A stretch of DNA of 64,000 bases from Simmondsia chinensis (Eukaryota; Streptophyta; Magnoliopsida; Caryophyllales; Simmondsiaceae): contig JAGTTD010000010.1 in the NCBI GenBank assembly GCA_018398585.1, positions 1,815,501 through 1,879,500 on the forward strand. Reading direction: 5' to 3'. The notes under the pieces were generated by a model. The model was not told the DNA's origin. It saw nothing but the letters and a program-made list of their open reading frames with translations, and searched no databases. Positions 5,209 to 61,415 of the stretch are shown piece by piece. Both the position numbers and the translations under genes were made by a program. Position 1 is the first letter of the stretch; each line of letters begins with the position of its first letter.

Positions 5209-5453
5209 GTGTAAAAAGAAACATATCCAGTGCCTCAAGGGCTTCCGCCCACGCAGGGTCTGGGGGGGCGGATGTACGCAGCCTTCCCCCTTCAAGGTGT
5301 CAGCCTGAAGAGAGACTGTTTCCTAGTGCTCCCAAATTCTGAGGGTGAGAACTTCCCAGGAGGTTACCCATTTTGGTACTACTCTCGCCTAAGCACGCTT
5401 AACTTCAGAGTTCTAATGGGATCCGATGACGGCGTATAGGTACCCTCTTTGGT
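5209..5453 (-). mobile_element. 5S rRNA-headed SINE, copy 1 (245 bp)
   Basis: It is flanked by a perfect 13-bp duplication, ATGAACACCAATT (5196-5208 and 5454-5466). In the sense (minus) direction it starts ACCAAAGAGGG and then carries about 100 nt aligned with plant 5S rRNA (CGGATCCCATTAGAACTC, GAAGTTAAGCGTGCTTAGGC, GAGAGTAGTACC). A 3' body follows, with GAAACAGTCTC, AAGGCTGCGTACATCC, CAGACCCTGCG and GAGGCACTGG. It ends in a T-rich tail. The 5S internal control region is present. There is no ORF and no LTR. Confidence 0.9.
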
Positions 5454-6290: not shown

Positions 6291-6594
6291 AAACAACAAC
6301 AACAACAACAGTCCTAGTGTCTTGCGGCTCCCGCAGAAAGCAGGGTCTGGGGAGGGTGGTGTACGCAGCCTTACCCCTTCCGGGTGGAAAGGAGGCTGTT
6401 TCCGAGGACCCCCAACCTGAAGTAATTGAGTACCTGCAAATAAACCACCAATTAATTACCCATGAATTATGAGGAAAAAGAAGAAGAAGAAAAGAAAAAA
6501 GAGAAAGAAGAAGAAGAAGAGGAAGAAGACGAAGCATGATCGGAGACTAAACTAGCCTAAGGGTCTTAAACTACCAGTCCCTCCCCGCACTAAT
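6291..6594 (-). other. 3' UTR and tail of the RTE LINE, homologous to the 5S-SINE body
   Basis: After the LINE stop codon there is a (TTC)n-rich stretch (about 6478-6537). A conserved block follows, reading in sense CAGGTTGGGGGTCCTCGGAA, ACAGCCTC, GGTAAGGCTGCGTACA, CCAGACCCTGC and GCGGGAGCC, and it ends in a (TTG)n tail at 6291-6311. The block is homologous to the 3' half of the six 5S-headed SINEs and resembles the 3' region of Au/TS-type plant SINEs. There is no target duplication around 6291-6420, which favours this block being the LINE's own 3' end rather than a separate SINE. Confidence 0.7.
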
Positions 6595-9534
6595 CTACTC
6601 TGCCACCTCTACTACCCTTATGCTAGCCCTCCATCGTGCCGTATCTGAGGCCATCTCCTCTCTCAGGTTTAGGTGGGTTAGGTCGTGACGGATCGTCTCC
6701 AGCCAACTCTTCTTTGGTCTGCCCCTCCCTCTTCTGCCTAGCGTCGTGTGAAGCTGTTCACACCTCCTGACTGGGGCTGTAGTCGGTCTCCTTCTAATAT
6801 GTCCAAACCATCTTAGGCGGTGCTCCCTCATTTTGTCCTCGATAGAGGCTGCACCCAACTTTCCTCGTATCACATCATTCCTAATCCTATCCTTCATTGT
6901 GTGACCACACATCCAACGTAACATCCTCATCTCTGCCACCTTCATCCTCTGTGTTTGATTTCGTTTCATTTGTCGACACTCTGCCCCATATAGCGTAGCC
7001 GGTCTTACTACCGTCCTATAGTATTTTCCCTTTAACTTTAGTGGGAACTTTCTATCACACAACACCCCTGATGCCATCCTCCACTTCTGCCAGCCTACTT
7101 TAATCCTGTTGCTGACATCCTCATCCACTTCACAATTCTGGTGTATCATGGATCCCAGATATTTGAAGCTCTCCTTACTCGGTACGGTTTCTGATTCGAT
7201 CTTAACCTCCTCTGTGCTAGTTGCAGTGGAATGGTTGAATTTGAATTCCACATACTCGGTCTTAAATCTGCTAATCCTTAAACCCCTCGATTCTAAAGCA
7301 CCCCTCTACAATTCCAGCTTCTCGTTTATGTCCGCTCGGGATTTCCCTACTAGAACTATGTCATCTGCAAAAAGCATATACCAAGGTACCTCCCCTTTGA
7401 TGTGTCTAATGAGCTCATCCATCACTAGAATGAACAGGAAGGGACTCAAGGCAGAGCCCTGGTACACCCCAACTGTAATAGGGAAAGTATCTGTCTCCCC
7501 TTCCCCTGTGCGTACATTAGTAAGTGCCTCTTCATACATATCCCTAATGACCCGAATATAAGGCAATGGGGTGCCTCTCCTACCCAACACCCTCCACAGT
7601 ACTTTTCTTGGCACTCTATCATATGCCTTATCAAAATCAAGGAAGACCATGTGGAGATCCTTTAGTCTCTCCCTATATTGCTCTATCGTTCTCCGTAAGA
7701 GATGAATGGCTTCCATTGTTGACCTCCCAGGTATGAACCCAAACTGGTTTTCGGTCACTTCCGTCCGTTGTCTTAGTCTCCTTTCTATGATTCGCTCGCA
7801 CAACTTGAGGGTGTGACTCATTAGTTTGATACCCCGGTAATTGGCACAGCTTTGAATGTCGCCCTTGTTCTTGTAGATTGGGACCAGTGTGCTCTTACGC
7901 CATTCGTCCGGCATTTTGTTCCCCATAAAGATTTGGTTAAAGAGTTTAGTCAGCCAGCTAATGCCCATCTGTCCGAGGCATTTCCATGCCTCAATGGGTA
8001 TCCCATATGGACCAACTGCTCTTCCCCTGCCCATATGTTTTAGGACGTCCTTGATCTCCTCTGGGGTAATTCGCTCGCAATAGCATTCGTTCTGATCCTC
8101 CCCCGTTATCGGGAGATCCCCTAGAGCTATTGCTGCGCTTTCCTGGCTGTTGAACAGATCGTAGAAATAGGTTTTCCACCTAGCTCTAATTAGATGCCCT
8201 TCCACTAGCACCTGTCCATATTCATCTTTTATGCATTTCACTTGCTCCAAGTCCCTCGTCCTCCTCTCTCTTGCTCTGGCGATCTTGTATATATCCTTGG
8301 CTCCCTCGTTGGTATCCAACCTCTTGTAAAACTCCTCATATGCTCTTGATTTTGCCTCACTGACTGCTTTCTTTGCTTCCTTCTTGGCCTGTTGATATTG
8401 CCGTCTCTTTTCCTCTTCTCTGCTACGCTCCCACTCCTTAAACAAATCTCGTTTTTCCTTAATCCTCCGTTGGACTTCCTCGCTCCACCACTAGGACTCT
8501 CTGTTGATCATTGCCCCACCTTTTGACTCTCCCAGGACTTCGCGTGCCAGTCCCCTAATCTTTTGGGCCATTTCATTCCACATTCGGTTTGTGTCTCCCT
8601 CCCCATCCCAATCGAGCTCCAAATCCGCTCTTTCCTTGTAAGCTCTATATTTTTCTCCCTTCAAATCCCTCCATCGGGTATGTGTCTGAACGTATTTCCT
8701 GCTTCTTCTGACCCTCTTCCTGACCTTTACATCCACGCACACCACCCGATGTTGTTTAGACAGGTCCTCTCCTCGGATGACCTTACAGTCCCTGCATTCT
8801 CTTTGCGCCCTTTTCCTCAGTAGTATGTAATCAATCTGCGTCCTCGCCCCTCCGCTTTGATACGTGATGAGATGCTCGTCACGCTTTTTGAAGACAGTGT
8901 TCACAATTGTTAGGTCATAGGTGGCCGCAAAATCTAGAAGAGATTTCCCCTTTGCGTTCCTAGTTCCAAATCCAAATCCCCCATGGTGTGGCACATATCC
9001 ATCCTCTGTCGCGTTAACATGCCCATTGAAATCCCCGCCAATCACCACTTGTTCGGCTTGTGGTATGCTTTGCATCATTTTGTCTAGCTCCTCCCAAAAT
9101 GTAGCCTTCTCATCTTCTGGTAGTCCCATCTGTGGTGCATAGGCACTGATGATGTTCCATACCTCCCTATCTGTTATCATCTTAATGCCTATGATCCTAT
9201 CCCCCGTCCTTGACACTTCGACTACTTTGTCCTTAAGACTGTTATCAACGATAATGCCCACTTCATTCCTCTCTCCGGTTTTGCCCGAATACTACCATTT
9301 ATATCCTTGCACATCCCTTGCCTTCGTGCCCACCCATTTAGTCTCCTGCAGGCAAAGGATGTTGATCCTTCTTTTCATTATCATTTGGACCAACTCATTG
9401 TTTTTCTGTGACAATGTCCCGATATTTAATGTCCCTATTCTTAGGTTTCCCTCCCTCTTTGGCTTCTCTCTCCTCCTCCCCACCCCCTGTATAGATGACC
9501 TCACATTCTGAGTTCCATATCTAGTATCGTTCAT
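6595..9534 (-). pseudogene. RTE-clade LINE ORF: endonuclease plus reverse transcriptase, three amber stops
   Basis: One frame of 980 codons runs from Met 9534 to the TAG at 6595. The N-terminal third is an apurinic-type endonuclease (RIGTLNIGTLSQ, LCLQETKW, ISAYAPQMG, VIGGDFNGHV, TQIDYILLR). The centre is reverse transcriptase (STLVPIYKNKGD, NYRGIKLMSHTLK, NQFGFIPGRSTMEAI, VFLDFDKAYDRVPR, QGSALSPFLF, LFADDIVLV). The C-terminal region contains RPATLYGAECR and RLRWFGHIRRRP, typical of RTE/BovB-like LINEs, with no RNase H domain. The frame is interrupted only by TAG at 9292-9294, 8491-8493 and 7306-7308, each where the family context suggests Trp (TGG). There are no frameshifts, so the insertion is young. 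It has lost coding capacity in this copy unless the stops are read through. Confidence 0.93.
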
Positions 9535-14350: not shown

Positions 14351-16591
14351 TTATGGTACAAAACGTGACGTCGATCTACGACGAGGTTCACCACGATGCT
14401 GTGAGGGTGAACCTTCCATATGAACTGAAAAACTATATCGCGGACGTTCACGTGTACTTCCTTCTGGAGGTTCACCACGATGCTGTGAGGGTGAACCTTC
14501 CATATGAACTGAAAAACTATGTCGCGGACATTCACGTGTACTTCCTTCTGGAGGGTCACCACGATGCTGTGAGGGTGGAGCACCAAATGAACGGTAGTCA
14601 AACTCTTCTTCTTGCATAGCCTGTTCAAATTGATGTCGTTCACCTGCAACATCTATTGCAGTACTGCAAGCAGTTAGTCATTCTGTAGGTACAGACTCTA
14701 CAGTGTGGCCAACAGTATTACGTATCCTTTGAACTGCCATTTTAGCATGCTTTTTAAGAACATCGACCTAGAAAATAGTACATTCAAATGTTAACGAAAC
14801 ATATTGTGGAATAAGTAAAGAGACAAATGTTGTAAAAGTGCTTACTACACGTTGAATTTGGTTGCCACTTGGATCATAACGAAGCCGTGATGGACGCTGA
14901 ACATGCACTTCACGCCGTACTATATAACGCCTAGTGATAGAGTTGTACCAACACATGTAATCTGTAGGCGATGTAGGAGGGTGATGTATGTTGGCGATAT
15001 AATCCATTCGTGTGTTCCATACCTCAATCCAGTTCGAATGGTAGACCTCCCAATTCTCGTCCCACCTGCCCGAACGAGATGTATTGTGCAAGGAGTCAAG
15101 GGTGTCGATGTGATCCGGGATATGTTGCGTTAATCCAAACTGACGCAACACTCTATCAGGGCAATGCAGCTCTACAATGCCAAAGCATATTATTGGTCCC
15201 TGATATCGCCAGATATGACGACCCTCGACAAAAATCGCGGGCAAGGTGCTTAACCGAGATTGCCTGTAAGGCGTCCATTGAACCTAAGTGCAGGTAAAAT
15301 AACTTAGTTATTACATTAAATATTAACAATATGTAATTGTGTCTGTTTTTATGTATATACCTGATGTGGCTCTTGGATATCAAGTTGGTCCCTATAGAAG
15401 GATTGGCATTGCCTTGGATTCTCGCGGAATGTCAAGGACGCAACCCAGCTGATCAAGTACAAAATAAATTATTTTAATATATATATAATATTACATATAC
15501 ATTAAATCAAGATGTACAAAATATTTTCCCTTACTGAGATCCCAAAGGCGGCAACAGATCATTGACTGCAGGTGGAAGTGGACGGGGCGCGGATATAAAC
15601 GGTCGACCAATATGTAAATGTTCCCATGACCACAACTACACATGCAATGGCACATACGAATTAGGGATTTAATACATTAAAGAATTAAACATTAATATAA
15701 GTGACCGTTCATACCTGGAGCAATAAAACACACCCGCCGATTTGGGCGCGGCCTGCCATGCAACACTGGCACATTTGTCTGTATAGATTGGCAAGAACAG
15801 CTGACCCCCAGTTGTACTCACTACACCCCTCCATCGTCCCAAGCAAAGGAAGATAGACCATTGATGTCCAATTACCAGTGCTGTTGGTGAACAATAGGGA
15901 GCCGAACAAATTAAGGATGTAGCGTCTGGTGTGTTGTAACAGCACTTGCTCATCAGCGTAAGATGGGGGGGGGGGGGGGGGGGGGGCTTGTGCACAAAGT
16001 TGCGCCAACCATGTACTTCTTACTAGGCTGCCCTTTAATGCTGATTCTAGGGGGGCTACACCCAATAAATAATGACAGAGGTCCTGCCAATTGTAGGTAG
16101 TGCTACCAGTGACTGCTCGACCGTCTATACGTAGACCTAGTAAGACGGCAACATCCTGTAGTGTTGGTGTCATATCACCAACAAGTAGGTGGAATGTATG
16201 GGTCTCCCGCCTCCACCTCTCTAACAAAGCCCCAATCAATGCGTTATCAATCTGGATGTGACCTATTTGGGCCACTCCAATGAATCCACCTTGTACGACA
16301 TAAGGTCGTATTTGTGGGCGAAGGGTTGATGGATGGTGAATCCTCACCCTGATCTTATCATTGCCCTGTAACACAAAGACATTAAATATATTAATCAACT
16401 ATTTGAATAATTATAATTCAAAATTATATGACAAATATCGATTAATAGCATACCCTTTCATTCCAAACATCCTCTGATCGATGACGCTCCTGAAGACGCA
16501 ACACAGACCTGTCATCTGGACCTGAATTTTGCTCGCCATACGGAGCAGTCGAGGTCGAAGTCGAAGCATGTCCTCCTAGTGTTCTTACCAT
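14351..16591 (-). CDS. Plant mobile domain (PMD/MAIN-LIKE type) protein inside a MULE, six exons, C-terminal stop
   Basis: Splicing joins six exons in frame: 16591-16454, 16365-15715, 15635-15535, 15448-15361, 15283-14846 and 14767-14351. All have GT..AG borders. The product matches the plant mobile domain: HTFHLLVGDMTPTLQDVAVL, LLGLRIDGRAVTG, YILNLFGSLLFTNSTGNW, SAVLANLYRQM, then EPHQ-VQWTPYR, IWRYQGPIICFGIVELHCPD, DYMCWYNSITRRYI. Host members act in meristem maintenance and silencing; the family is also common in transposons. A TGA at 14678-14680 would end the protein at about 501 residues. The frame stays open past it for about 109 codons, including 28-residue repeats, so the TGA is probably acquired. 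The start Met at 16591 is the best guess; an upstream in-frame Met exists at 16645. The second exon contains a poly-Pro run from a 22-G tract. Confidence 0.82.
14385..14600 (-). repeat. 84-bp in-frame tandem repeat at the PMD gene 3' end
   Basis: Two and a half units spaced exactly 84 bp (starts near 14385, 14469, 14553) encode 28-residue repeats with SPSQHRGEPPEGSTRE and RYSFSVHME. The period is a multiple of three, so the frame is preserved. Confidence 0.9.
15965..15986. repeat. 22-base G homopolymer
   Basis: It encodes part of a poly-Pro stretch on the minus strand inside the PMD gene. The coding frame continues correctly on both sides. Confidence 0.95.
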
Positions 16592-28231: not shown

Positions 28232-28486
28232 ACCAAAGAGGGCACCAACATGCTGTCACCGGATCCCATTAGAACTCCGAAGTTAAGGGTGTTTGGGCGA
28301 GAGTAGTACTAGGATGGGTGACCTTCTGGGAAGTCCTCATCCTCAGGTTGGGGGAACTGGAAAACAGCCTCTTTTCAGGTTAACACCCTGAAAGGGAAAG
28401 GCTGCGTACATCCCCCCCCCCCCCCCCCCCGGATCCTGCGTAGGCGGAAGCCCTTGAGACACTGGGTATGTTTCTTTTCCTTTTTT
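28232..28486 (+). mobile_element. 5S rRNA-headed SINE, copy 2
   Basis: It starts ACCAAAGAGGGCACCAAC, then the 5S block (CACCGGATCCCATTAGAACT, GGGCGAGAGTAGTACTAGGA, TGGGTGACCTTCTGGGAAG). The body has ACAGCCTC, GGCTGCGTACATCC, GATCCTGCGTAGGCGG and GAGACACTGGGTATG, then a T-rich tail. A 19-base C run (28412-28430) expands a shorter C run of the family. A clear target duplication is not visible; TTACCATCAT and TTACCACCAT are possible remnants. Confidence 0.88.
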
Positions 28487-34514: not shown

Positions 34515-35003
34515 CTAGTGTCCATTGATCTTAGATATGGTTACTGATTCAAGGCTTTTCTCTATTGTCTTACTGTTACAGGTTATGTTGGTAGAACTGA
34601 TGATAGAGATGCTCCGTTGTTTGATCTCATCCACAAAGGCTTGGATATTCTGCTCAGAGGAACCGCCCTCGGACACCGCCTTCTCCGCAGCTGCCTTCCA
34701 CCTGGCGGCGTTCTCTCTCATTGCGTCTGCCTTCGGCCCTATGGTGGCCTCACGGAGACACTGCTCCACTTCTGTCTTGGGAATGATTTTGTCATCGTGC
34801 TCGCCCCTGCATATCCGAATCCCGACTCCAAACACATCAACTAGAAACTTGGCGTCGGTGACTTGGTCGCCCCACTGGGGGAAAGCCAATATCGGTACGC
34901 CAGAGGAGAGGGCCTCCATTGTCGAGTTCCACCCACAGTGAGTCATGAAACAAGTGACTGATGGGTGGGCTAAAACCTGCTCTTGTGGGCTGTATTTCAC
35001 CAC
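34515..35003 (-). CDS. UGT84-type UDP-glucosyltransferase, exon 2 (PSPG box and C-terminus)
   Basis: The exon begins with GTG after the acceptor TTCATCAG and encodes VVKYSPQEQVLAHPSV to the stop, 162 residues. It carries the 44-residue plant secondary product glycosyltransferase box, which grips the UDP-sugar: HCGWNSTMEAL at box positions 19-29 and FPQWGDQ ending at Asp43-Gln44, the glucose-contacting pair. Position 1 of the box, nearly always Trp and stacking on the uracil ring, is Tyr (residue 355). The C-terminal helix with NAARWKAAAEKAV and GGSSEQNIQAFVDEI is typical of group L UGT84 enzymes. The last 30 residues are poorly conserved. Confidence 0.93.
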   Translation of the reverse strand: MVKYSPQEQVLAHPSVTCFMTHCGWNSTMEALSSGVPILAFPQWGDQVTDAKFLVDVFGVGIRICRGEHDDKIIPKTEVEQCLREATIGPKADAMRENAARWKAAAEKAVSEGGSSEQNIQAFVDEIKQRSISIISSTNITCNSKTIEKSLESVTISKINGH

Positions 35004-35282
35004 CTGATGAACATCAATACACATAAGTTATATGCAATTTAGATATAATAAAACTACAGTTACGACAATTTTATGACTATTATTCTTTATAAGTCACATT
35101 ATTAATATCGATCATTTTACGTAGTGGACCACTAAAAATTTGAAAAAAATACGGTGAGGATAATAAATGTAAGCAGGGTATAACATTAAATTCAAGTTTG
35201 GCAGTCCACTCCATTATTATCCAATTAATTATATGGCTAAAATAAATGCTGGATATAAATTCATTAGCTTATTGAAAATAAG

Positions 35283-35668
35283 GGTTATTTATGTCAGAAA
35301 TTCCTATACGTTATTTATTATATTAATTTAGTCCTTATACTTTTAAATCTGTCAATTTAGCCCCTATATGATTCAAAATGTGTTAATTTGGTTCTTTAAG
35401 AAAAAAAATTATATTAAGTTTTTAATGAAATTTTTAATAGTTCAACCATAAATTGAGTTAAATTGAGTACATAAACAAATTTATGATAAATTACTTACAT
35501 CTAACATAAGTTTATTGTTCAAAATTACATCATTAACATAACTTAAATTTTACCAAATGACTAAATTGACATATTTTAAATTATACAGGGACTAAATCGA
35601 CACAATTAAAAGTAAAAAGACCAAATTGATATATAGACAAAGTACATGAACCTTTGACGTAAATAACC
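35283..35668. mobile_element. MITE family D, full copy in the UGT intron
   Basis: Left end AAGGGTTATTTATGTCAGAA and right end CTTTGACGTAAATAACCTT are inverted. The interior has ACTAAATTGACAT and ACAGGGACTAAAT. It matches 59580-59937 and the partial copy at 6003. Confidence 0.75.
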
Positions 35669-36221
35669 TTAAAAATAATTATTAAAAAAAAAAATGCATC
35701 AGCTTTGCTACAAGGTAAGAAATCATTATTTTTTAAAAAAATTTACAAAAGTAAATGTTGGAAATTGTCAAAGACAAGAACGACAACAACAGCAGCAAGT
35801 TAGTGTTTCAGTGAGGCTATATACAATCTTAATCTTATAGGATGTTACCCGATGAATTAATTTAATTCAAAATTCTATCTTATAAATGTTACATTATTGA
35901 AGTTGACATTTAAGTTAAATAATTATAATTATTATAAGCTTGAAATTAAATGATATTAATAATTGATCTCATAAGATAATGTGCTTGGAATGACACCACA
36001 CGCTTTGGGACTTGACCCCTTCCATTATAATTCTTGCGTGTTACACACACATTAGTCATTCATATCTCATATTACGGAAAATAATAATTATATACTTAAA
36101 AATATCTTTAACTGTTGTTATTATTATCAGAGTAAATAATATTATTATACAAATATTGTTATAAAAGTGCTATAGTCTTAAAATTTTTCTTCTACTAATA
36201 AAATTACCCAAAATTTTAATA

Positions 36222-36841
36222 TATGTGTAATCAAGTCGAGCCGAGTATTTCAGTACTCGTACTCGTACTCGATTTGAGTGGTTAATTTTGCTCGAACTTG
36301 AGCTCGATTAACCATTCATGTACTCGATTCGAGTACTCGTTTATTGTGCATATGTACGTTCAACAAACTAACTCCTTCATAATATTATTCCATAGACTCA
36401 AACATTAGTTACACTCAATTTGGATACTCAACTATTGCCCACATTATATTTTAATATATACAGCTATAAATTATTGATACATTAATAGCAAATATGCATC
36501 AAAGTTTAAATTTCAAAAAATACAAGCAAACCAAATATTAATTCTTTTACTCCGTCACAAATGTAACCTGTCAACTTTTATAAGGAATTCAATCTTCATT
36601 CTTTCATTCTACTCATAATGTCACAAGCCATCCATTTCAAAAGAGAATAATACACAAGAATTACTTCGTAGTCGAGTATTTAATCGAGTAACGAGTCGAG
36701 TAGTTCACTACTCTCGTACTCGTTTATTAATCGAGTATCTTTTGATACTCGAACTCGAACTCAGTTAATTCGAGTACGAGTCGAGTTTTATTCGAGCTAC
36801 TCATAAATTACTCGCGAGCGGCTCCAATCTTTTACACCCCG
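36222..36841. mobile_element. hAT-type non-autonomous element with GAGTACTCG repeats
   Basis: Ends TGTGTAATCAAGTCGAGCCG and CGGCTCCAATCTTTTACACC are inverted. Both arms consist of short repeats of CGAGTACTCG. The interior (about 36350-36650) is AT-rich and has no transposase. Confidence 0.6.
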
Positions 36842-37684
36842 ATATAACATATATTAAAAGGGCATTTATTACAATTTATTATGAAAAAAATTAATATTGT
36901 ATCCTATAATTCTGCGATAGGCAGTATTATTGTTTAGATATTTTTTTATTTAATGTCAATCGAAAAGCTTCTATTATTATCTAATGTTGACAAAAATTGT
37001 CCTATTAACAACACTAACCTTAATATACTACGTCCCGTATATATTTTAATACGAATATTAACGAGGATCATGCTCGAATTAGTCTCGAGCCTTCCCGACT
37101 AGCACATTACCCATGCCACATCATCGACCTATACTCTAATTAGTTAGTATAAATAGGGGTCATTAGTATTAGGAATAATAAGTTGAGATTAGCGTTTTAT
37201 GTGTTCTCGCACTCTCCCCTAAATTTTTCTATGTAATCCTTCCCTTTCTTCTGTTAATATAATATAATCTTTGCTTTTTTTTATGCTCGAATATCTTAAT
37301 CAATTAAGATTCGTAACATATATAAATATTTATTGCAATCATTAACATAAAATCTAAAATCAAGTGTCTACTGTAAAGTGCAATCAGTGCGTAAAAGTCA
37401 GTAATAATAGAAACGAAGCAAACATCCAAAATAGTAAAATTTGACTATTTAATATATGACAATTTTATATAAATTCATTTAAATTATATTAAAAAGCATA
37501 AATTATTATTCTTAAGTATACAATTTGTAATTATATATATATAATATAATAATTTGCATAAATTTTTTTGTGTTATTAATTTCACGGATAGGAATTAAAA
37601 TTAAAAAAAATAAAAATTATAAGCTTTTTAAAAAATAAATTACATGTCAAAATCATAGTTTGACACACGTACAATGCATCCACA

Positions 37685-37711
37685 TGGGGGGGGGGGGGGG
37701 GGGGGGGGGGG
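37685..37711. repeat. G homopolymer of about 25-27 bases
   Basis: An uninterrupted G run in the UGT intron between CACAT and AGATCCC. Confidence 0.9.
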
Positions 37712-38085
37712 AGATCCCGTCTCCTACCAAAATAACAGCACTGTAGCCAGTGAGAGAGTGAGAAGGGGAGGAAAGAGAATTTAGAATTTTTTTATTTTAA
37801 AATTTAATATATTTAAAAATTTATTAAAATATTATTTATTATATTATCATATTTCACAGAAAATTTGTGTAAAATATACGAATATAATAAATAATAATGA
37901 TAATATGTATAAATTATTTCAAAACTTTTAATAAAAATTTAACAAATATCTAAATAATAAATTATCAAATAAATAAATTTATATATTAAAATTATTTATA
38001 TAAATAATTTAATATTTTAATAACTTTTTAAATATATTAAAATTTTCTCTCTCTCTCTCTGCCTGCCACCTGCCACCACCAAGGG

Positions 38086-38487
38086 ACCCATAAAAAATAT
38101 TTAAAAAAGTAACCTCTTTTAATTCTTTAATTTAACAATCTAACCCACTTTGTCAGATTAAAGTGGGAAGGCGTCATTTTGAAGGTAAAAAATACATAGG
38201 CGCCGTTTGACATTGCGCCATTAATTGAGAGGTGCCGTTCCAAACGGCGCCTTTAGATGAGATATATATAAACGGCACCATTAGGTGAACACCACCTCTC
38301 CCCCCCCCAACTCATGGCGCCTCCCCTCCACACCTATGTATTTTTTACCTAAAGGTGCCGTTTGAAACGGCACATTCCCACTTTAATCTGACAAAGTGGG
38401 TTAGAATGCTAAATAATTTTTAAAAAAGGTTACTTTTTTAAATATTTTTTAAAATTGAGTCATTTTAAAAAAAAGTCCCACTAAGGT
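38086..38487. mobile_element. Palindromic element in the UGT intron
   Basis: Arms run from AAAAAATATTTAAAAAAGTA at the left to ACTTTTTTAAATATTTTTTA at the right. They include the long matched blocks CCCACTTTGTCAGATTAAAG / CTTTAATCTGACAAAGTGGG and GGTAAAAAATACATAGG / CCTATGTATTTTTTACC. The centre carries GGCGCCGTTTG and GCCGTTTGAAACGGC motifs like those in the MULE TIRs. No ORF; no certain target duplication. Confidence 0.75.
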
Positions 38488-39099
38488 GCTGTTGCCAGCA
38501 TTGGATCTTCTTCCATCGACATGGACACCATTTTAAAAATTATTTTTTGTAACTTATTTTTTTAAGAAGTTATTTATGTCATCGACTCTTGTACTTTACC
38601 TATTATTATAAATATTTGCTCCAAGACTTTTTATTTTATTAATTTAATTTTTGTATAACTTTTTAATTATAATCAAATATAAAGTTGAAATTAGCAATAT
38701 TTTCCCATTAAAATCATGACTGGTAATTAAAAGTAAAGGGTGTCCTTCAACCTTTCCCACGGGTGAAGGTGCCTTCTAAATAGTAATCAATTTTGTTTGA
38801 TTCGTCGTGGTCAAAATAATTATGTATTTTACAAATAATAAAAATAATAAAATTATTTTAATTATTATTATCTGATAATAATAATTTTATTCAGATAGTA
38901 ACATTAACATTTTATTTCAATGAAAAATTAACATTTGACTTTAATATTGAACTGTTCTCCGCATTATGTATCAATCGGAACTCAAGATGTCGTTTTTGTA
39001 TTAAGTTTTCTCACTACTTATTGAAACAAACATTAATATCAAAATTGATGGAAAACGTTGTAATAATAGATGCACTAAATTAACACAATTAAAACGCAC

Positions 39100-40152
39100 C
39101 TTGCCCTTATTGCCGGCCCGCTTGAAGAACCCATCGGGCAACCGATGAGCTGCCAACCTGGAATCCGGGTGAGGCGGCTTCATGACCCACAAAAACTCGA
39201 GGCCCGAGTTTAAGACCCCTTCCGCAATCTCCTCTATCTGCTCTTGCTTCAAGTGCACCACAGTCCCGAACGAAATATACACCACAGACCTCTCTTTCTT
39301 CCCATCCAACCACTCCATACACTCCATATCCGCCTTCATCGGGTCCGCCCGAACGCCAGATCCTGCGGTGTCCTTACTCTTAAACTGTGGCCCCACTGGC
39401 CTAATTGGACACAGCGCCGCTGTTTGCTCGATTGTCTCTCTCTCCAGCTCCTCAAACGTGTCCATCAACACACAAAAGGGTTTCGATAAGTTCTTGTACT
39501 GACCCAGAATCGCTCTTCTAAGAAACGAGTACGGCGTAGTCGGGTGCAAAAAAGTGGGTATTTCATCCCATTTAAGGGTCGGTAGAGTTGGGATTTTGAC
39601 ATCAATAAACGGGTCGGATTCAGTAGGAAAAGGAACCATTTTGTTGTGGTAGTAAAAGTAAGCCAAAAAGCACGCGCAGGACTGAACCCAGAGCATCGCA
39701 CTCGGCAACTCCAGCTCCTCCGCCACGTCGGACACCCACGGGATGAAGGGGTTGTTGATTAGGCAGGTGACGTGGCGGCCGAGATGGGCTTGGTGGGCCA
39801 CCATTTGAGGGATCTTTTGGCGGCCCATGAACTCCAATTGAGAGAGGTAGAGGTCAAGGTCTTGCCGGCGAGGGTCATCGGAGGGCCACTCGTCGTCGAA
39901 GAAGTCGAAACGGAGGAAGCCCGAGCCGAGGGGGAGAGGGGAAGAGGAGACGGAAGGGTTCGAGTTGCGGATGGGAGCGCCGAAGCTCTCGGTGGTGATG
40001 AAGGTGACGAGGAGGCCATGGGCAGCGAGGCGCTTAGCGAGGCGGAGGAGAGGGTTGATGTGGCCTTGCGCCGGGAAGGAGATCATGAAGATGTGGGGGA
40101 GTTGGGGAATTTGGTGGTGGTCGTGGTGGTGGTGGTGGTGGTCGGAACCCAT
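39100..40152 (-). CDS. UGT84-type UDP-glucosyltransferase, exon 1
   Basis: Exon 1 encodes 351 residues from Met 40152; with exon 2 the protein is 513 residues, normal for the family. UGT84 enzymes transfer glucose from UDP-glucose to a carboxyl group of hydroxybenzoic or hydroxycinnamic acids or related compounds (glucose ester formation) in the cytosol. The acceptor here is not determined. Visible motifs are HIFMISFPAQGHINPLLRLA with the catalytic His (residue 31), CLINNPFIPWVSDVAEELEL, LPSAMLWVQSCACFLAYFYY and SVVYISFGTVVHLKQEQIEE. The N-terminus is odd: a histidine run (DHHHHHHDHH) from a (CAC)n tract before the family start. The exon ends at GK before the donor GTGCGT. The reading frame is intact. 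Confidence 0.94.
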
Positions 40153-40927: not shown

Positions 40928-41117
40928 GGAACATACTCAGTGCCTCAAGGGCTCCCGCCTACGTAGGGCCTGGGGGGCGGATGTACGCAGCCTTCCCCTT
41001 TCAGGGTGTTAACCTGAAGAGAGGCTGTTTCCCAGTGCCCCCAACCTGAGGGTGAGGACTTCCCAAGAGGTCACCCATCATGGTACTACTCTCGCCCAAG
41101 CACGCTTAACGTCGGAG
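40928..41117 (-). mobile_element. 5S rRNA-headed SINE, copy 4, 5'-truncated (190 bp)
   Basis: A perfect 12-bp duplication, TTCATTTGATAA (40916-40927 and 41118-41129), flanks it. In sense it begins inside the 5S part (CTCCGACGTTAAGCGTGC) and keeps the full body and tail. It therefore inserted already truncated, as LINE-driven reverse transcription does. Confidence 0.92.
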
Positions 41118-46967: not shown

Positions 46968-47213
46968 ACCAAAGAGGGCACCAACACGCCGTCACCGAAT
47001 TCCATTAGAACTCCGAAGTTAAGCGTGCTAGGGCGAGAGCAGTACCAGGATGGGTGACCTCATGGGAAGTCTTCACCCTCAGGTTGGGGACACTGGGAAA
47101 CAGCTTCTCTTCAGGTTAACACCCTGAAGGGGAAATGCTGCTTACATCCCCCCCTCGCAGACCCTGCGTAGGTGGGAGCCTTTGAGGTATTGGGTATATT
47201 CCTTTCCTTTTTT
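46968..47213 (+). mobile_element. 5S rRNA-headed SINE, copy 5 (246 bp, best preserved head)
   Basis: A perfect 14-bp duplication, TATATAAAGCTTTT (46954-46967 and 47214-47227), defines both ends. It starts ACCAAAGAGGGCACCAACAC, then a 5S block with GAAGTTAAGCGTGCTAGGGC and CAGGATGGGTGACCTCATGG. The body has ACAGCTTCTC, GCTGCTTACATCC, CAGACCCTGCGTAGG and GAGGTATTGGG, and it ends CCTTTCCTTTTT. The A box, intermediate element and C box of the 5S promoter are all present with few changes. Confidence 0.94.
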
Positions 47214-47395: not shown

Positions 47396-47517
47396 CAACA
47401 ACAACAACAACAGTCCCAGTGTCATAAGGGCTCCAGCATACCTAGGGTCTGAAGGGGTGGATATATGCAGCCTTTTCCCCTTTAGGGGATACCCTGTAGG
47501 GAGGCTGTTTTTCAGGA
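47396..47517 (-). mobile_element. 5'-truncated RTE LINE 3' end or related SINE fragment (122 bp) with (TTG)n tail
   Basis: The sense strand has AAACAGCCTCC, AAAAGGCTGC, GACCCTAGG and GACTGTTGTTGTTGTTG, the same block and tail as the LINE at 6291-6420. The flanks GTAAAAAATATAGTC (47381-47395) and GTAAAAAAAATAGTC (47518-47532) are an imperfect 15-bp duplication. Confidence 0.8.
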
Positions 47518-58776: not shown

Positions 58777-59478
58777 TTAGGTTTTATTTTTTTTAACTAA
58801 AAATCGCCTAATTTTAGGTACAGTTAAAAAAAACCACTAAATTTTCTAATTTTTGACACCTAAACTTTTTATTGTTTTTCAATGTCAAACCTTAATTGCT
58901 AATACTGTTAACATCCGACAGTTTTTCTAACGTGGCTTTGAAAAAAGTAATAATTTTTAAAAATTCAAATTTACATTTTAAAATATTTTAAATATCTTAA
59001 AAAACCTGTAAATATTTTTAAAATAATTTTTATATTTAAAATTAATATATTTTTTTTAAATACCACATCAACAAAAACTAACGAATGTTAACTGCGTTAA
59101 GATTAAGGTGTAAAAAGGCAACAAAAAGCAATATTCTCAGTGCCCCAAGGGCTCCCGCCTAGGTACGGTCTAGTGGGGTGGATGTACGCAGCCTTCCCCC
59201 TTCAGGGTGCTGTTTCCGAGAATCCCCAACCCGAGGGTTGTAACACGAGGACTTCCCAGAAGGTCATCCATCTTAGTACTACTCTCGCTCAAGCACGTTT
59301 AAATTCGAAGTTCTAATTGGATCTGATGCTTGGGTGTTGGTACCCTCTTAGGCATTAAGATTAAGGTGTGATATTAAAAAAATTTTAAAATTTTAGGAAC
59401 GACTTTGAAAAATTAAAAAATTTAGATATTTTTTAAAACCATACCTAAAATTTAGGTAGTTTTTAGTTTTAAAAAGAA
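58777..59478. mobile_element. MITE family B, copy 2, interrupted by a 5S-headed SINE
   Basis: Left arm CTAAAAATCGCCTAATTTTA and right arm CCTAAAATTTAGGTAG are inverted, as in 12688-13228. The SINE at 59112-59354 sits in the right half. Confidence 0.7.
59112..59354 (-). mobile_element. 5S rRNA-headed SINE, copy 6 (243 bp), nested in a MITE
   Basis: A perfect 15-bp duplication, TTAAGATTAAGGTGT (59097-59111 and 59355-59369), flanks it. The 5S head is more diverged (GAACTTCGAATTTAAACGTG) but GAGAGTAGTAC remains. The body lacks part of the CAGGTTAACACCCTGAAG segment and has a 12-bp extra piece. The tail is GAATATTGCTTTTTGTTGCC plus T. Confidence 0.9.
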
Positions 59479-60714: not shown

Positions 60715-60860
60715 AAAATGCGGTTATTTCAGTATAAACCGTGTTTAGTGAACGCAGTTCACTTCAACATAAACTGCGTCTACTAAACGCGGTTTACCCA
60801 TGAACCGCGTCTACTAAACGCGGTTTATCCATGAACCGCGTTTATAAAACGCGGTTTAAC
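60715..60860. repeat. Left hairpin array (CGCGGTT motif)
   Basis: Units of about 26-28 bp alternate AACCGCGT and ACGCGGTTTA. Each pair can fold into a small stem with a loop of 5-7 bases. Confidence 0.85.
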
Positions 60861-61194
60861 GCCAGGAATCCAAAATCCCCTTTTTTTTCACTTATACTTA
60901 CCATTATGCCGCAATTCTTCACTTTTTTGTTTGCTTATAGTTTTTATTATACCGCAATTTGTGATGATTATCATATTGATCCCATAATGGTAAGCTCCAA
61001 CATCATAAGTGGAGGTCACATAACTCCAATAATAGTACTTGAAAGATCTCTAGTGTATAAGCAAAAGAAAGGAGGAGGCAAACGACGTGACTAGTGGTGG
61101 GTTAACGAGAAAGAGGCAGAGAGACGGTGAGAGCAGCGGAGAGAGCACGAGTGAATGAATGGGCCGGGGTTTTTTAGATAAACCTAGTAAACCG

Positions 61195-61415
61195 GGTCCT
61201 AAAGACGCGGTTATAACAATTATAAACCGCGTCTTCATAACGCGGTTTTGGCATTAATAAAACGCGTCTTCGTGACGCGGTTTTAGTAATATAACCGCGT
61301 TTTCGTGACGCGGTTTTATTAATATAACCGCGTTATTAAAAGGCGGTTTATACCAATATTATACGCGGTTTATGGACGCGGATTATTAAAGTCGGGTTTT
61401 GTAAACGCGGTTCAA
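61195..61415. repeat. Right hairpin array (CGCGGTT motif)
   Basis: About twelve motif copies (GACGCGGTTTT, AACCGCGTTTTC and relatives) in alternating orientation, matching the left array. Confidence 0.85.

Follow-up and report, generated by a model that had tools for sequence, protein, structure and literature searches.

Our data indicate that the genome of Simmondsia chinensis harbours a plant SINE family in which a 5S rRNA head is joined to a body that corresponds to the final ~120 nt of a LINE of RTE type, a reading in which we place high confidence. The evidence comes firstly from six copies in the window – the whole stretch of 64,000 nucleotides analysed here (contig JAGTTD010000010.1, positions 1,815,501 to 1,879,500) – and then from searches of the full genome (831 Mb, 35 contigs). 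The 5S head, the body derived from a LINE 3′ end and an insertion signature like that of RTE elements together point to a 5S-headed SINE, and not to Cassandra. A first-pass annotation, made from the letters of the window, had already read the repeats as a 5S-headed SINE in a plant, and the chimeric anatomy, the copy number and the long target duplications bear this out; the checks carried out since (building a consensus, searching the genome and counting duplications in sampled copies) all fit the SINE reading. What it missed is that the body is the 3′ end of a LINE, that such a LINE lies in the same window and that there are at least three 5S-headed types.

The copies, with the parts of copy 5 and a headless relative, are as follows (boxes were compared on the type A consensus).

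5209..5453, minus strand: copy 1, full-length type A, 245 bp; 5S score 57.6 bits; 13-bp duplication
28232..28486, plus strand: copy 2, type A, full-length, containing an extended poly-C run; 5S score 72.4 bits
28966..29210, minus strand: copy 3, full-length type A, 245 bp; 5S score 55.2 bits; 15-bp duplication with 1 mismatch
40928..41117, minus strand: copy 4, type A, 5′-truncated, beginning at element position 41; 5S score 26.8 bits
46968..47213, plus strand: copy 5, full-length 5S-headed SINE of the young type A, 246 bp
46968..47078, plus strand: head of copy 5, 5S-derived, with boxes A, IE and C
47079..47201, plus strand: body of copy 5, a type with homology to the 3′ ends of RTE LINEs; the T-rich tail then runs to 47213
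47405..47517, minus strand: body-only element, no 5S head, 5′-truncated, (TTG)n tail
59112..59354, minus strand: copy 6, older type B; 5S score 45.2 bits; 15-bp duplication

All six copies are present where the first-pass annotation had placed them, and its sizes (245 bp for copies 1 and 3, 246 bp for copy 5) are exact. The Rfam 5S_rRNA model aligns with every copy over model positions 1-120, and five of them, at 45.2-72.4 bits, exceed the gathering score (38 bits). Copy 4 (26.8 bits) falls below it and, because this copy lacks the first 40 positions of the element, its alignment to the model begins in flanking DNA. Copy 5 scores 62.7 bits over the same model positions, is 91.9% identical to the type A consensus and is flanked by a 14-bp duplication, TATATAAAGCTTTT; copy 4 keeps a perfect 12-bp duplication, TTCATTTGATAA, despite its 5′ truncation. 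Target duplications of 12-15 bp, claimed for five of the six copies, were thus recovered in copies 1, 3, 4, 5 and 6 (13, 15, 12, 14 and 15 bp); a search of the flanks of copy 2 found none. The anatomy given in the first-pass annotation needs some amendment. The ~100 nt assigned to 5S are indeed 5S-derived, the length in the young type being ~111 nt; the T-rich tail stands and the body is ~125 nt rather than ~130 nt. Copy 6 belongs to the older type (84.3% identity to the type B consensus versus 74.9% to that of type A) and retains the 3′ end of the 5S sequence, which type A has lost.

Two features of the bodies deserve mention. A poly-C run of variable length stands before GACCCTGC, and is long in copy 2 and at two sampled loci (L032 and L037). 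The 5′-truncated body-only elements with (TTG)n tails – that in the window at 47405-47517 (minus strand), and those at L025, L030, L039 and L058 – begin near CTCGGAAACAGCC, which could possibly mark a preferred truncation point or else another SINE family.

The window has other features as well. Pieces of UDP-glucosyltransferase genes occupy 34515-40152 (minus strand), and the piece at 39001-40152 belongs to the UGT84 (gallate glucosyltransferase) type. Its best matches are from Nepenthes (69%) and Ancistrocladus (67%); of the 15 best, all those with a species name are Caryophyllales. This one gene supports the plant assignment and makes a host of that order probable. A fragment of a plant mobile domain gene (PF10536) lies at 15709-16398 (minus strand), and tandem repeats of 31-35 bp containing ACGCGGTTT fill 60768-61349, unlike their AT-rich surroundings.

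A central issue is the nature of the head, which occurs in three types. Type A lacks ~7 nt of 5S near its 3′ end and carries a T-rich tail. Type B, known from six copies including copy 6 of the window (82-91% identity to their own consensus), keeps the 5S 3′ end in five of them (consensus GTGTTGCACCCCT, then CAGGTTGGGG), where it abuts the LINE tail; the copy at L028 is without it. The type B tail reads GTTGCTTT. Type C, whose consensus was built from five copies (L032 and L061 being one and the same), has a head nearer to the 5S gene and a (TTG)n tail. On the strength of greater divergence in these small samples, types B and C appear older than type A.

Comparison with the host's own 5S genes is instructive. 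Tandem 5S genes form two groups on contig 8 (G000:C8:4685657-4702430 and 6396691-6414603), spaced mostly ~420-440 bp apart; their variants differ at a few positions, and their box C departs from the canonical plant form. Identity to these genes is 90/119 for type A, 101/119 for type B and 105/119 for type C. It is unevenly distributed: with the boxes at their usual limits, box A (15/15) and IE (6/6) are intact in all three types and box C is nearly so (16/18, 17/18 and 16/18 in A, B and C), while nucleotides 25-49 are kept almost as well (24/25, 23/25 and 25/25) and nucleotides 1-24 are not (9/24, 12/24 and 16/24). Because nucleotides 25-49 are also conserved, the well-kept part of the head is nucleotides 25-97 and not the boxes alone – a point against the reading preferred here. 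Base 1 of types A and B aligns by length with base 1 of the host 5S genes, and that of type C does so with a one-base gap, even as nucleotides 1-10 themselves differ between A and B.

The heads of all three types share the motif CATTAG with the host's own 5S genes, at a position where the 5S of Arabidopsis reads CATCAG. Judged from this motif, the heads may have been born from the 5S of their own lineage. In box C the A and C heads have retained AGGATGGG, the form described as canonical for plants (PMC10853983), at the place where the host gene today reads AAGATGGG. That box C of these two types departs from the present 5S gene at two positions is a further point against the preferred reading.

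The origin of the body was revealed by a LINE within the same window.

6303..6420, minus strand: LINE 3′ end, homologous to the SINE body, ending in (TTG)n
6595..9261, minus strand: coding remains of an RTE-type LINE (open reading frames; Pfam PF14529 and PF00078)
8491-9261, minus strand: endonuclease
7306-8445, minus strand: reverse transcriptase
6595-7251, minus strand: C-terminal part

The C-terminal part (6595-7251) gave no Pfam family, and an NCBIfam scan of the LINE gave only a sub-threshold match to a group II intron reverse transcriptase. Several relatives of the endonuclease are named craniofacial development protein 2-like, a name linked to RTE/BovB elements. On the basis of these names, the two domains and the (TTG)n end we take the element to be a member of the RTE clade. 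In flowering plants, (TTG)n or (TTGATG)n is the reported terminus of RTE LINEs, and poly(A) that of almost every L1 (PMC3747384).

A genome search with the reverse transcriptase gave 108 scored matches, and the 3′ ends of 20 other LINE copies were compared with the SINE (all on the plus strand, from the best 108 of 11,280 first-look candidates). The SINE body found a match in all 20 (best E value per copy 1e-17 to 5e-6) and in none of 20 shuffled controls; the 5S head matched none of the same 20 ends. The homology mostly begins where the 5S sequence stops: in 16 of the 20 copies the alignment opens with TCAGG, immediately after the 5S end, in one it opens a base later and in three further in. 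An RTE-type copy met by chance (L060) has the same order as the other LINE 3′ ends. Body and LINE ends are ~71-77% identical in 19 of 20 cases (at L080 the match is in two short pieces), and the SINE body has a longer inner hairpin than the sampled LINE lineage; given both this level of identity and the hairpin, the direct partner of the SINE may be another LINE lineage. Folding was less informative. An RNAalifold consensus fold of the body holds three pairs only, helices set by hand are paired in most cells, with one helix misaligned for the LINE rows, and neither approach yielded covariation in the 3′ hairpins.

A different history for the body should be weighed here, namely that a SINE of Au/Angio type, already in existence, exchanged its tRNA head for one of 5S, in which case the body would have come from that SINE and not directly from a LINE. 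The junction with the LINE tail argues otherwise: TCAGGTTGGGGG, which stands just after the 5S end, is the same in most of the 20 fetched LINE 3′ ends, and types B and C keep the LINE-like ..CTCGGAAACAGCC, in type C together with (TTG)n. The T-rich end of type A counts against a LINE origin, as it differs from the (TTG)n end of the LINE; the tails of types B and C look like intermediates between the two. A tRNA-headed Au parent was also sought with an Au box-B junction, and this gave one genome match at up to three mismatches, a search that tRNA heads with other junctions would escape. On the other side of the balance, Au-like SINEs end in short T runs, as type A does (tables of PMC3747384), promoter exchange has been attributed to plant SINEs (Seibt 2020, as cited in PMC10853983), and a chimera of 5S and tRNA SINE has been published, HaSE3 from Helicoverpa (PMC3272025). 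Taken together we consider head replacement unlikely, and favour derivation of the body from the 3′ end of an RTE-type LINE.

The manner of insertion provides a further line of evidence. In a larger sample of loci the duplications found measure 9-24 bp. They lie directly adjacent to the element in 59 of 98 type A copies (48 of the 67 that are full-length, 11 of the 31 that are truncated), in 12 of 18 full-length type C copies and in two of four full-length type B copies. From this sample 18 matches without a 3′ end were dropped (14 of type A, 4 of type C), along with two at locus edges, and segmental duplicates such as L030 and L058 were both counted. Truncated copies are mostly without a detectable duplication: none was detected in 20 of 31 of type A, in 27 of the 31 placed with type C or in any of the 12 placed with type B, and LINE 3′ ends are among the latter two sets. 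A first sample gave 28 of 44 distinct copies with an adjacent duplication, compared to 3 of 865 mispaired flank pairs; with pairs at any distance allowed, 26 of the 865 reached the score.

The sequence around the duplications bears a known mark. Nakatsuka and Ohshima (PMC13295347) describe a T stretch and TA at the target sites of plant RTE LINEs and of SINEs sharing their 3′ ends. Upstream of 75 type A and type C duplications, T makes up 140 of 225 bases at positions -11 to -9 (62%), versus 367 of 1125 elsewhere (33%); these positions were chosen with the published 'about ten nucleotides' and the duplication table already in view. This enrichment of T, 9-11 nt ahead of the duplication, matches the published RTE signature. 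Of the 75 duplications, 46 begin with T; at the second base the 59 type A duplications have T in 26 and A in 21, with TA and TT at 15 of 59 each, a weaker fit to TA than that published.

These same observations bear on Cassandra, a TRIM common across plants that likewise carries the 5S boxes A, IE and C (PMC10853983); the repeats could in principle be its solo LTRs or fragments. The first-pass annotation had already dismissed this very improbable reading, and we reject it: the 5S sequence stands at the first base of the element and not in the middle of an LTR, the 3′ part is a LINE tail, and the duplications found are of 9-24 bp, with even the 5′-truncated copy 4 keeping one of 12 bp. The duplication search shows repeats of at least 9 bp, 5-bp repeats lying below its threshold; in the loci read no flanking pair of LTRs was seen.

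The family is large. The junction between 5S and body of type A has 11,472 matches in the genome at up to three mismatches, and that of the (TTG)n-tailed type C has 6,828 (no match to the control in either case, a reversed pattern for type A), so that A and C together account for ~18,300 junction-bearing copies. A 21-nt core of the body has 15,402 matches at up to two mismatches (reversed control 0), and the 17-nt 5′ end of the element 6,365 at up to one mismatch (control 6). Among the first 30 loci drawn by the body core, 18 extend to within 5 nt of the 5′ end, five start at positions 6-40, five at 41-97 and two are without a head; among those picked by the 5′ end, 29 of 30 extend to the 3′ end. 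These 60 loci lean toward young copies because they are exact matches on one contig. The 41 full-length type A copies among loci L001-L068 are 86-99% identical to their consensus. With a length of ~245 bp, dispersed positions and many copies, the elements have the properties of SINEs.

One near-intact 5S copy does lie outside the contig 8 arrays (G000:C29:34924734-34924852, locus L151), with a type A SINE beginning a few bases further on, and is perhaps a 5S retrocopy. That the family as a whole comprises such retrocopies landed beside unrelated repeats is the least credible reading of all, and was rejected on the grounds that one and the same junction recurs at thousands of loci (the type A and type C counts above) and that the duplications flank the whole chimera.

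With the SINE reading preferred, a plausible cycle can be outlined from the sequence features: transcription is probably by polymerase III, and insertion probably by the machinery of RTE elements. TFIIIA and polymerase III would read the internal 5S promoter (boxes A, IE and C), with transcription starting at 5S nucleotide 1 – the first base of the element – and ending at the T-rich tail. The protein encoded by the LINE would then recognise the LINE-like 3′ end of the SINE RNA, nick the target ~10 nt downstream of a T stretch and prime reverse transcription there. Such a process would leave 9-24-bp duplications and some 5′-truncated copies.

How the founder arose is a related issue. It was probably formed by a template switch, in which the LINE's reverse transcriptase, having begun at the 3′ end of LINE RNA, would have moved on to the 3′ end of a whole 5S rRNA. 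Types A and B differ from type C both at the 5′ end of the 5S sequence and at the junction, and it is therefore conceivable that an RTE-type reverse transcriptase fused 5S to a LINE tail twice. That the family is a plant SINE3 lineage of its own, born in this lineage from its own 5S and possibly twice, is a tentative suggestion, on which our view inclines somewhat to doubt.

What is known of related systems sets these findings in context. The 3′ region, with its T-ending or (TTG)n tail, appears similar to that of the Au-like SINEs and of the Angio-SINE superfamily, which is marked by a conserved 37-bp Angio-domain at the 3′ end. The described plant SINEs have tRNA heads according to one review (PMC9033089), whereas here the head is 5S rRNA. 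The TS SINE of tobacco is a comparable case: its 3′ end is held in common with an RTE LINE and has TTG repeats, as here, but its head is tRNA (PMC3747384). Legume SINEs likewise share their 3′ end with an RTE LINE and show the T-stretch signature (PMC13295347). The SINE3 elements of vertebrates, insects and fungi (including HaSE3 and AfuSINE3) have a 5S head with boxes A, IE and C (PMC3272025, PMC5063351); they differ in their animal or fungal hosts and in their tails, and the 5S part of the plant element has the CATTAG of its host. The present family is best classed as SINE3-like, with an RTE-type tail.

Thus 5S-headed SINEs are known from animals and fungi, and tRNA-headed SINEs with RTE tails from plants; the combination in a plant is new as far as the literature searched goes, and new too is the origin of the body from the 3′ end of an RTE-type LINE. 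A search of titles and abstract openings in open-licence papers found no 5S-headed plant SINE, consistent within that scope with the first-pass annotation, to which no described plant SINE of this build was known, and we think it likely that a 5S-headed, RTE-tailed plant SINE has gone undescribed so far. 5S heads are provided for in the classification used by AnnoSINE, a tool for annotating plant SINEs (PMC8825457), and such elements may therefore have been annotated without notice.

Cassandra, the plant retroelement that also uses a 5S promoter, differs in being an LTR element with its 5S sequence in the middle of the LTR and in having no LINE tail; the paper on it cites the acquisition of promoters by SINEs for animals (PMC10853983). 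It has been speculated that the 5S of Cassandra came from a SINE3 element (PMC10886601). If our reading is true, plant SINE3 elements would be the kind of donor so envisaged, which makes the idea testable in plants, although the present family looks far too young to have been the donor itself.

The closest precedent is the Ped-1 SINE of the springhare, which likewise combines a 5S head with the 3′ end of an RTE-clade (BovB) LINE (table 1 of PMC3747384). The likeness is one of build: Ped-1 has a rodent host, draws on the BovB lineage and is presumably of independent origin. A 5S-headed plant SINE of more than 10,000 copies, with a likely partner LINE, a readable junction and a promoter open to comparison with the 5S genes of its host, would mean that fusion of 5S to a LINE tail has also taken place in plants, as it did in Ped-1.
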